From Akkermansia muciniphila (GTDB lineage Bacteria; Verrucomicrobiota; Verrucomicrobiia; Limisphaerales; JADLHS01): DNA of 33,797 nt. A program made the translations under genes and the position numbers. The DNA lies in NCBI GenBank assembly GCA_945882065.1, contig CAMCWI010000010.1, forward strand, positions 1 through 33,797. Direction: 5' to 3'. Each line of letters starts with the position of its first letter. The first letter of the stretch is position 1. Positions 29,967-33,797 of this stretch are shown here, one piece after another. The notes beneath the pieces are model-generated. The model searched no databases. It was not told the origin of the DNA and saw only the letters and a list, made by a program, of their open reading frames with translations.

Positions 29967-32900
29967 CTACACCCACGCCAACAGCATCACGTTGGAATCA
30001 TTGCCGGCACCGGCTTTGATTTCCCAGCGGACAAAACCGGCGCGTTGCAACATCGCCTCCAACTCCGCCTGCGTCTGAAAATGCAATCCCTCCTTGGTGC
30101 GGTTCATGCCCATGCGTGTTGCAAATTCCTCCCATCTGTGAATCTTGCGGTGTGCGGCTGTCTCTGAACGTGCGCCGTCGCGTAACACCAACAGCCCGCC
30201 GGGACGCAATGCCTGGCGCGCTTTGGTGAGGATCGCCAACTGTTTCTCCGCAGTCCAATAGTGCAGCACATCGAGCAGCAGCACCGCATCGCACGGCGGA
30301 TAGTCGCACGTCAGCAGATCGCCGTGAGTGAACTCGATGCGCGGACTTTCCGGTGCGCTGCGTTGTGCCACACGGATTTTGTCCTCATCATAATCCACGC
30401 CCCAGAACGTCCGCGTATCCGTGAACGTCGCGAGCCAATGCGTCGCCATGCCGTAGCCGCAACCGAGATCGAGCACATGTGCGCGACGCGGCACAACTTC
30501 GTCCAACGCTAGGAACACGGTGTCAAGCTTCATCTTCCAGCGCACGAACTCCTCCACGTATTTGCCCTGATAGCGATAGAGCCGATTGATCTTGCGACGC
30601 ACGATGCGCGGCGTGTTGATCTCGTCGAGTTGTTCTTGCAAGCCGTCGCGCACGAGGGTTTCGCAATGCTTCATCAGCGCTACGACGCCGAGCGAGTAAT
30701 CAAAATTCTGCGGCGTCACACGCGGCAGTGCACGAACGGTCGCGTGGAACGGCTCGAACCAATACGCGTCGCGCGGCATCACGCAGTTCGTATCACACAG
30801 CACGACGGGCAGAATATCCTGCTTCAATTCCACCGCCAACTCGAACGCACCGCGATGAAAACGTTGCACGAAACTGTCTGGAGAACGCGTACCTTCCGGG
30901 AAAAAATGCAGAGACAATCCCGCGTTCAGACGTTGCCGACAGAGTTCAAGCGTAGCCTCTGGCTGGCCGGATTCTATCGGCACATGACCGAGACACTTGC
31001 AGGCGACGCCGAAAATCGGTGTGTCATAGACGCGCTTTTTCACCGTCATGCAAATGTCGCTGGACACGATGAACGCGGCCAGAACATCCACGGCGGATTG
31101 ATGATTGCTGATGACGATGGCAGGGCGATTAAACGTTTCGTCGGAAACTTTTTGGTAATCCGCTCTGCCGAACGGGAACGACTTGACCAAAAATTTCATC
31201 GCAATCTGTGAAAGCTGCCGCAAGCGCCGATCGGCGGTTGTTGGGGAAATCAATTTCAAAAACGGGCGCATCATTACGAAAACAAACGTCTGGCTCGCCA
31301 ACAGATATAGACCACACCAGACCGTTGCCAGCAGATGCCACCAGCGCGGTGCGCCACGCGGCGGGTTTCTGAACAACAGTAAGTCCATGCTGATCGGCAC
31401 GACAATGAGTGTTGCTAAAAATGCAAAACCCATACCGATCAAGACCGTCACGCCCATCGAGAACAACACAGGATGATTTGCGATGACCATCACGCCGAAG
31501 CCGAAGATCGTCGTCAGCGCAGACACCAACACGGACGCACTGTTCGCCGCTGCATGACTTGATTGTCCGCGCCACTCATCCAACTTGCTCGTCACGAGAA
31601 ACACTGCGTAATCCTCGCCCACGCCGATCACGAAGATGACAAAAATGCTGTTCATCAGATCAATTGGCAGCCCAAGCCAGCCCATCAATCCGAACGTCCA
31701 CAACAATCCGATCGCCAGCGGCAACAACGTGATCAACACCAATTCCACGGATCCGAGCGTGAGGAACAACAACACCGCCACGAACACCCCCGTCCACAAC
31801 GCGAACCGATTCAATCCCACCTTTGCCAATCCTGCGATGTGATCTGCGAGTCCCTTGCCGTCTAGCACGATGGCGTCAGGCATTATCAGCCGCAGCTTCG
31901 CAGCCTCGTCGCGGTTCTTGAGTTTCACGAGCGTGCTGATGGCGTTGTCGTTCGTGGCGAGAGCGGCGCGCTCGGTCAACGCCTTCTCCAGCGGCGTGCC
32001 TTGAAACATATCAAGCGTGAGCAATGGCCGCTCACCCTCGACGCTCTGCCAGAACTTCGCGAATGCCTCCGCACGGAAATCGAGTTCGCCGCCGGTTTTA
32101 TCCAACGTCTCGCGCAGAGCAACACGCCGCTCCGCAGTCCAGAATTCACGCCAACGTTTCAAGTTTGCAAGCTGCGTTTCCGGCGCAGGACACACGGACG
32201 AGAGCGAGAAAGCCGACGCCACATTCGTATCGCGAGAAAGCACTTCAAACGCGCGATCATTCTGCGCGAGTGCTTCCTCCTGTGTCTTGCCACGCACCAC
32301 CACCATCGTCATGCCAAGCGCGTTGCCCCAAGTATTTTGGATCAATGCATCATCGCTGCGCGTCGAGTCACTGATGCCGTTGAGCTTCGCGATGTCGCCC
32401 TCGAATCGAAGTCGTTTTGCGCCGAACGCCATTGCCACTGTTAACACGACAACGAACAACACAAGCCAAAGACGCCGCCGCGATTCCCAGCGGAAATACT
32501 TTTCCCACCACGCCGTCAACCAGAGTGGTGGTTGACCTGACTTCTTCGCCACTGGCACTAGCAACGGCAAAATCACCAGCGCAAACCCCGCCGAGAACAC
32601 CACACCGATCGCACCCAACATGCCGAGTTGTTGATACCCGTGCATCGGCGATGTCATCATCACCAAGAACGCCGCCAACGTCGTGATCACACCGACGCTG
32701 ATGGGAAAAACGAGCCGGCTCAGATGCCGACCAATCTCGCGCCGATCCGTCGTGCCTACGTTGTCGAGGTGATAGATGATGTGGATGGCGTAATCCACCG
32801 TGATGCCGACGGCGATGGATGCAAAGCCCGTGGCGATGGCAGAAAGATGTTTCTGCCACAGCATGAACACTACGCCCGCCATCAGTGTTCCGAACAAAGA

Positions 32901-33797
32901 CGGCAAAAATGACAAAGGCGCGAGCCAACGCCGCCGATACGCCACGAAACACAGCACGATCATCCCCGCCGAACCGATGGCGATGCAACGCGTGGCATCA
33001 ACGCGGATGATGGTGGAATTATCTACCGCCATGCGATGTCCGCCCGTGATCGCGACATGGACGCCGGGAAATTGTTTCTCCACATCCGCGACGACGCGCA
33101 TCATCTCCTTCACCAACGACGCGCTCGCCTTTGAGTCTGACGACGCGAAGCTCGGCTCGGCCATCATCAACACATGTCGCCCGTCGCCACTAGTGATGCG
33201 TCCATCCACGATCTGCGCGTCACCGAAACCTGTCTGTAACGGCAGCACCTTCGCCACCACCAATGCGCTCATGCCGACGGGATCAGCCGCGACTACGTCT
33301 TTGAGCACCATGCCTTCCGGCCCCGCGAGCTTGCGGCGCATCACGGTCAGATATTCGCGAACTTCGGCAGGCGCGAGTTTTGTTTCCAACGCCAGAGCAT
33401 CGGATTTGGTGAAAAGATTCGGCAACGCGCCAGTGAGAAATTCGATCACCTTCCCCTGCCCGCCCGCTTCTATGTGATACGTGATGCGTCCGAAATTTTG
33501 ATTTGTGGAAAACCGCGCGAAAACTTCGTCTCCTGCTCGCGCGAGTGTTTCGGGATCGTCAGTGTTGATGCCGATGTCGAGATAGACGCGATCAATCTGA
33601 CGGAACTTCTTCAGCGCATAACGATACTCATCCACCTGCCGGTCATTACGCGGCAGCATGTCGAGGATGTCCTCCTGTAAATCAATCCGAGACGAGAACC
33701 AACCCGCTGCCGCCATCACAAGCACAGTCGCCACCAACACGCCGCGCCGATGCGCAACGAGCCAGAGATAAAGCCGCGTGTAGAGATTGTCCTTCAT
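29967..33797 (-). CDS. Fusion protein: MMPL/RND-type exporter + PlsC-type acyltransferase + SAM-dependent methyltransferase
   Basis: N-terminal ~850 aa has MMPL repeats (GITVDYAIHIIYHL, FVIGVGEDYAVFLVTSK); middle NHQSAVD (HxxxxD) and FPEGTRS; C-terminal VLDLGCGYGMATHWLA and LRPGGLLVLRDG. ATG lies exactly on the window edge, so the start may extend further. Confidence 0.93.
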   Translation of the reverse strand: MKDNLYTRLYLWLVAHRRGVLVATVLVMAAAGWFSSRIDLQEDILDMLPRNDRQVDEYRYALKKFRQIDRVYLDIGINTDDPETLARAGDEVFARFSTNQNFGRITYHIEAGGQGKVIEFLTGALPNLFTKSDALALETKLAPAEVREYLTVMRRKLAGPEGMVLKDVVAADPVGMSALVVAKVLPLQTGFGDAQIVDGRITSGDGRHVLMMAEPSFASSDSKASASLVKEMMRVVADVEKQFPGVHVAITGGHRMAVDNSTIIRVDATRCIAIGSAGMIVLCFVAYRRRWLAPLSFLPSLFGTLMAGVVFMLWQKHLSAIATGFASIAVGITVDYAIHIIYHLDNVGTTDRREIGRHLSRLVFPISVGVITTLAAFLVMMTSPMHGYQQLGMLGAIGVVFSAGFALVILPLLVPVAKKSGQPPLWLTAWWEKYFRWESRRRLWLVLFVVVLTVAMAFGAKRLRFEGDIAKLNGISDSTRSDDALIQNTWGNALGMTMVVVRGKTQEEALAQNDRAFEVLSRDTNVASAFSLSSVCPAPETQLANLKRWREFWTAERRVALRETLDKTGGELDFRAEAFAKFWQSVEGERPLLTLDMFQGTPLEKALTERAALATNDNAISTLVKLKNRDEAAKLRLIMPDAIVLDGKGLADHIAGLAKVGLNRFALWTGVFVAVLLFLTLGSVELVLITLLPLAIGLLWTFGLMGWLGLPIDLMNSIFVIFVIGVGEDYAVFLVTSKLDEWRGQSSHAAANSASVLVSALTTIFGFGVMVIANHPVLFSMGVTVLIGMGFAFLATLIVVPISMDLLLFRNPPRGAPRWWHLLATVWCGLYLLASQTFVFVMMRPFLKLISPTTADRRLRQLSQIAMKFLVKSFPFGRADYQKVSDETFNRPAIVISNHQSAVDVLAAFIVSSDICMTVKKRVYDTPIFGVACKCLGHVPIESGQPEATLELCRQRLNAGLSLHFFPEGTRSPDSFVQRFHRGAFELAVELKQDILPVVLCDTNCVMPRDAYWFEPFHATVRALPRVTPQNFDYSLGVVALMKHCETLVRDGLQEQLDEINTPRIVRRKINRLYRYQGKYVEEFVRWKMKLDTVFLALDEVVPRRAHVLDLGCGYGMATHWLATFTDTRTFWGVDYDEDKIRVAQRSAPESPRIEFTHGDLLTCDYPPCDAVLLLDVLHYWTAEKQLAILTKARQALRPGGLLVLRDGARSETAAHRKIHRWEEFATRMGMNRTKEGLHFQTQAELEAMLQRAGFVRWEIKAGAGNDSNVMLLAWV

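Follow-up and report, generated by a model that had tools for sequence, protein, structure and literature searches.

Results

The window analysed here, a stretch of 33,797 bases, is a complete contig (C10) of a metagenome-assembled genome (G000; 348 contigs, 89.7% complete); among genomes with a name, those closest to it are MAGs called 'Verrucomicrobia bacterium' and Pedosphaera. Read as DNA and as translation, positions 29967..33797 of the minus strand form one unbroken ATG-to-stop frame of 1276 amino acids, with its TAG stop at 29967-29969 and its ATG at the contig edge, which the frame reaches because the window is the complete contig; the contig terminates exactly at the start codon. The preliminary description of this DNA had assigned to this single frame two MMPL halves, a PlsC-type acyltransferase (AT) and a class I SAM methyltransferase (MT), and Pfam, NCBIfam and PDB searches agree in confirming this, with the motifs as it gave them.

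Truncation of the start by the contig edge was considered and rejected, as the sister sequence (L007) has its ATG at the identical position, overlapping the 3' end of the upstream glycosyltransferase gene; the start codon is therefore native and the window protein complete. Split genes or a frame error were likewise rejected in view of seven intact copies: besides the window, colinear single chains of 1275-1277 amino acids exist in six other genomes (G005, represented by L007; G512, L008; G002, L009; G010, L014; G003, L015; and G488), so that the fusion is no artefact of frame or assembly. The window gene is under purifying selection; compared with L007, its MMPL part has a dN/dS of 0.09 and its MT or C-terminal part one of 0.08.

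In the exporter part, the Pfam family MMPL (PF03176, E 9.5e-20) matches in two stretches, one of them aa 660-825. The first MMPL/RND half (aa 1-461; 32415..33797, minus strand) is placed by PF03176, by its HpnN/HAE3 match and by hydropathy, with peaks at aa 20, 268, 295, 320, 362, 396 and 443. The second half (aa 462-808; 31374..32414, minus strand) is placed by PF03176 at aa 660-825 and by the HpnN structures 6wu0/5khn in the PDB, which match aa 664-804. Alignment and hydropathy locate a DY pair of the proton-relay type, Asp335-Tyr336, in TM4 (32790..32795, minus strand), of which Asp335 is invariant in the eight aligned fusions and Tyr336 is replaced by Phe in both Bacteroidota, while the corresponding pair in TM10, Asp729-Tyr730 (31608..31613, minus strand), is invariant in all eight. 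The positions of Asp335 and Asp729-Tyr730 resemble the proton relay of MmpL3, and by analogy I presume a similar role for them. In NCBIfam the MMPL part matches HpnN/HAE3, the AT the AGP acyltransferases and the C-terminal part the SAM methyltransferases. The identity of a hopanoid exporter was rejected, as the scores remain far below the curated HpnN cut-offs (117.6 vs 751.85 bits for TIGR03480, and 60.5 vs 1100 for NF052374).

Between the MMPL part and the AT, hydropathy reveals a hydrophobic linker helix (aa 823-845; 31263..31331, minus strand), and the match to the PlsC structure 5kym starts at aa 840. This helix is likely a membrane anchor of the AT, and its hydrophobic stretch, at aa 823-841, would fit the membrane-lying anchor helices of PlsC. 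The PlsC-type domain itself (aa 889-1000; 30798..31133, minus strand) is recognised by PF01553 (E 4.9e-21) and by 5kym over aa 840-1055 (E 4.3e-12). It carries motif I, NHQSAVD, from aa 898 (H899-x4-D904; 31086..31106, minus strand), in which N, H, S and D are invariant in the alignment, and motif III, FPEGTRS, at aa 966-972 (30882..30902, minus strand), with an invariant P-E-G-x-R. The core of the class I SAM methyltransferase (aa 1108-1201; 30195..30476, minus strand) matches Methyltransf_25 (PF13649, E 5.1e-16), and its motif I, DLGCGYG, lies at aa 1110-1116 (30450..30470, minus strand) according to the motif scan and the alignment. A structure model of the AT-MT part is of moderate quality (mean pLDDT 60); in a fold search with it all 50 matches listed are methyltransferases, of the small-molecule/O-methyltransferase kind. 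Across the eight fusions, down to 25% identity, the HX4D and PEGxR motifs of the AT, the DxGCGYG motif of the MT and the Asp residues in TM4 and TM10 are invariant columns.

The sequence past base 33797 is present solely on other contigs of the same genome. One of these, C182, carries in the order upstream of the fusion genes for an AMP-ligase, an acyl carrier protein (ACP), an HxxxD protein, an FAD oxidoreductase, a second AMP-ligase and a GT2-DUF2062 glycosyltransferase, the same order as in the relatives, and terminates inside the last of these genes, about 100 bp short of the fusion ATG when both contigs are placed on L007. The cluster is complete in L008 (the same locus as G512), where the run from AMP-ligase to GT2-DUF2062 leads into the fusion, followed on the opposite strand by genes for an LPLAT, an AAT/C45 protein, an ApeI-like dehydratase, a 166-aa protein, LolA, a polysaccharide deacetylase and a ketosynthase with chain-length factor (KS-CLF), and then by ACP, a KS-like protein, KS, a 152-aa protein and HtrB. 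The KS/LolA half also adjoins the fusion in G010 and, in G028, the 3' part of a fusion that is cut by the contig end, and in G002 the start of this half (LPLAT, AAT, dehydratase) lies beside the fusion over the part of the contig that was read.

In the window genome and in G005, the KS/LolA half is found on another contig than the fusion; in G000 this is C118, with KS-CLF, ACP, ApeI-like dehydratase, LolA, deacetylase and AAT. G003 has its two halves on two long contigs, C23 (57,666 bases) and C127 (234,012 bases, the KS lying around 130 kb), so that the KS/LolA half is truly a separate locus there, as it is in the window's sub-clade. Azoarcus is a known case of polyene genes in clusters that are not linked (PMC3949708). 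Downstream of the fusion, the window holds a putative sialate O-acetylesterase-like frame (named by eye) and others instead of the KS/LolA half.

The gene set of the aryl-polyene/flexirubin type (KS with chain-length factor, ACP, ApeI-like dehydratase, AMP-ligase) is thus divided over C182 and C118 in G000, and contiguous in L008. The suggestion that the fusion belongs to such a cluster is borne out by the AMP-ligases, ACP, glycosyltransferase and oxidoreductase directly upstream and by the KS, ACP, dehydratase and LolA genes on C118 and beside the fusion in relatives. The partners predicted upstream, past 33797, are there as far as the C182 genes are concerned, but the ketosynthase/LolA half is not among them, being at its separate locus. 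DarA/DarB, a ketoreductase and an ammonia-lyase were not seen in the G000 contigs read; an ammonia-lyase homologue occurs within the related cluster of G466.

Two further proteins of these clusters deserve mention. The ketosynthase and a chain-length-factor-like part form a single chain of 732-733 amino acids in L008 (18456-20654, minus strand) and L058 (3913-6108, minus strand), whereas in Persicobacter KS and CLF are two adjacent genes (L059, 10312-11505 and 11495-12376). The genes for ACP and FAD oxidoreductase flank that of a conserved protein of about 418 amino acids with an HxxxD motif (HALMD; L008, 5268-6521, plus strand; L057, 3331-4587, plus strand); it has no Pfam match and is a candidate ester- or amide-forming acyltransferase. 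Its AlphaFold model (pLDDT 33) was left out of the evidence.

Of 196 evenly sampled genomes from the same order, searched at E<=1e-30, 11 match: seven with the Pedosphaera-type fusion, one with a Bacteroidota-type fusion (G430) and three without an AT between MMPL and MT (G465, G466 and G477). Among 388 genomes of the phylum, a close relative was found, besides the window, only in G252, and this one also lacks the AT. The AT-less MMPL-MT fusions of these related genomes (L088, 15152-18244, minus; L101, 5127-8255, minus; L102, 10855-13986, plus; L103, 10555-13686, minus strand) have just 8-21 residues at the AT site in all four chains. The DUF2062 glycosyltransferase gene lies directly upstream of the AT-less chain in G252, G466 and G477, and none was detected near that of G465. 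As AT-less versions occur in similar clusters, the AT is dispensable on the chain; the trees fit both a gain and a loss of the AT. The Bacteroidota-type trifunctional fusion in G430 (L100, contig C23, 7317-11195, minus strand) also has a Bacteroidota-like gene order (FAD, C45, AMP-ligase) within this verrucomicrobial order, for which horizontal transfer or contamination is possible.

The window copy stands apart in its AT. Identity profile, private positions, trees and dS delimit a divergent, apparently replaced segment at aa ~822-975 (30873..31334, minus strand): identity to L007 is mostly 80-98% outside this segment and mostly 32-55% within it, with 32-52% over aa 841-960, where the other orthologues compared share 62-82% identity with L007 or with one another. 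The window differs from every other Pedosphaera-type copy at 41 positions that are private to it, and 31 of these fall in aa 801-1000. Window and L007 are united in the MMPL tree (100/100) and again in the C-terminal tree (97/97), while in the AT tree the window falls outside all eight others (99/91). The topology of the AT is rejected by the MMPL data (p 0.018), and a clade of window and L007 by those of the AT (p 0.0098); both p-values are somewhat generous, since an initial tree had already been seen when the groups were named. The dS of the AT segment is raised (1.24 vs 0.77-0.89) and near saturation. As a donor for the segment, nothing above 57% identity was found among the genomes searched.

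Discussion

The fusion is probably an inner-membrane exporter of an aryl-polyene (APE- or flexirubin-like) lipid, in which an MMPL pump, an anchored AT and a cytosolic MT are joined in one chain. This reading starts from the domains, the conserved catalytic residues, the single chain in seven genomes and the cluster membership; for the substrate, the sequence of the steps, the direction and the coupling to energy it draws on the protein families and on the genetics of the E. coli ape genes (ApeM, ApeD, ApeL; PMC8253772). An aryl acid would be loaded on the ACP by the AMP-ligase and ACP encoded upstream, and elongated to a polyene by the enzymes of the KS-CLF, ACP and dehydratase locus. At the inner leaflet, the AT would then transfer the polyene (or a fatty acyl group) to an acceptor that is a glycerolipid or a glycolipid, and the MT would methylate the product at the aryl head group or the acid; 12 MMPL helices would place the C-terminus in the cytosol, the site of SAM and acyl-ACP. 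The MMPL part, driven by protons, would extract the lipid to the periplasm, and a LolA-like partner may carry it on to the outer membrane. That modification and export are physically coupled, as had been proposed, is not supported in that form, the coupling having been deduced from the fusion only.

The gene set is similar to the flexirubin-type clusters of Bacteroidota (PMC3992019) and the flexirubin head group is methylated (PMC8253772), so the fusion could also serve a true flexirubin, a dialkylresorcinol-ester pigment, with the AT or the HxxxD protein making the polyene ester and the MT methylating the aryl head. I regard this as improbable, as resorcinol genes of the DarA/DarB kind did not turn up in those stretches of the clusters that were read, even though they may lie elsewhere in the genome. 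Still more improbable is that the exporter's place in a polyene cluster is fortuitous and its cargo an unrelated lipid, for instance a hopanoid or a common glycerolipid; the MMPL part does score against HpnN and the HAE3 family, but for HpnN far under the cut-offs, and the linkage to the DUF2062 glycosyltransferase and AMP-ligase genes is kept across Verrucomicrobiota and Bacteroidota, whether or not the version has an AT.

As for the divergent segment in the window's AT, an intragenic replacement by a divergent homologue is the best reading, a preference that stops short of proof. Accelerated evolution of the AT is disfavoured, since dS is raised as well and the AT data reject the clade of window and L007. 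The segment might also be a chimera made during assembly instead of a real recombination, a concern that the fragmented state of the MAG raises; this seems unlikely to me, as each of the two junctions preserves the frame and falls at a homologous position, every AT motif is kept, no second, sister-like AT copy was found in the G000 assembly, and no donor above the identity given was found. Given the AT-less chains in four genomes and the in-frame replacement of the AT core in the window lineage, the AT may tentatively be seen as a cassette that can be exchanged while the exporter and the MT on either side of it are conserved, though I put this below an even chance. If it holds, the exported lipid could be retuned while pump and methyltransferase are left untouched. 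In the anchoring of the E. coli pigment the lipid acceptor has been described as still unknown (PMC8253772), and the natural series of ATs that are present, absent or replaced could reveal the role of the AT in such anchoring.

The preliminary description held that exporter and acyltransferase are separate genes in clusters of this type. This is correct for E. coli CFT073, where the ape cluster has ApeM (RND), ApeD (LPLAT) and ApeB (MT) as separate proteins, along with ApeJ and the LolA-like ApeL, with polyene-lipid anchoring and export as proposed roles (PMC8253772); the likeness to the window cluster drawn here concerns the set of functions. It is also correct for a Pseudoalteromonas cluster, in which the LPLAT is a separate gene and a 746-aa 'hypothetical' protein is encoded near LolA. 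In the flexirubin cluster flxA-flxY of Chitinophaga pinensis, flxP-flxU are proposed to export the pigment and, by description, comprise a deacetylase, a phospholipid/glycerol acyltransferase, LolA, a glycosyltransferase and an exporter, like the window cluster (PMC3992019). HpnN/HAE3 RND exporters share the MMPL family and the two-half layout and give the best solved-structure match, but have neither AT nor MT, and belong to another cluster, and the fusion scores well below the HpnN cut-offs.

The statement fails for the Bacteroidota Aureispira and Persicobacter, in which the same fusion exists, already named in the former, and the three-domain architecture is therefore not new, although no paper describing an MMPL-AT-MT fusion was found in the literature searched. 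A tblastn search of plasmids gave two end-to-end relatives, both from Bacteroidota, Aureispira (E 2e-113, 95% of the query) and Persicobacter (E 6e-98, 97% of the query). The protein of Aureispira anguillae (WP_264793640.1), with the same MMPL-AT-MT order over 95% of the query, bears the NCBI product name 'trifunctional MMPL family transporter/lysophospholipid acyltransferase/class I SAM-dependent methyltransferase', and by domain order, end-to-end similarity and intact catalytic motifs the window protein can be assigned to this family. They differ in their 25% identity and in the local gene order, the Aureispira fusion being followed by genes for an FAD oxidoreductase, a C45 peptidase and an AMP-binding protein. 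On plasmid pPP6 of Persicobacter psychrovividus the fusion (WP_338399298.1) is annotated only as a 1-acyl-sn-glycerol-3-phosphate acyltransferase and lies in a flexirubin-like cluster with ammonia-lyase, FabG, KS, CLF, LolA, deacetylase, C45, AMP-ligase and a DUF2062 protein. As in the Verrucomicrobiota, the GT-DUF2062 gene is directly upstream of the fusion, and LolA, deacetylase, KS, ACP, C45, AMP-ligase and HtrB are common to both; unlike there, KS and CLF are separate, ammonia-lyase, FabG and a stand-alone methyltransferase are additional, and the fusions are 25% identical. A known exporter-enzyme fusion is thus extended from the Bacteroidota to the Verrucomicrobiota, where it is tied to complete polyene-lipid clusters.
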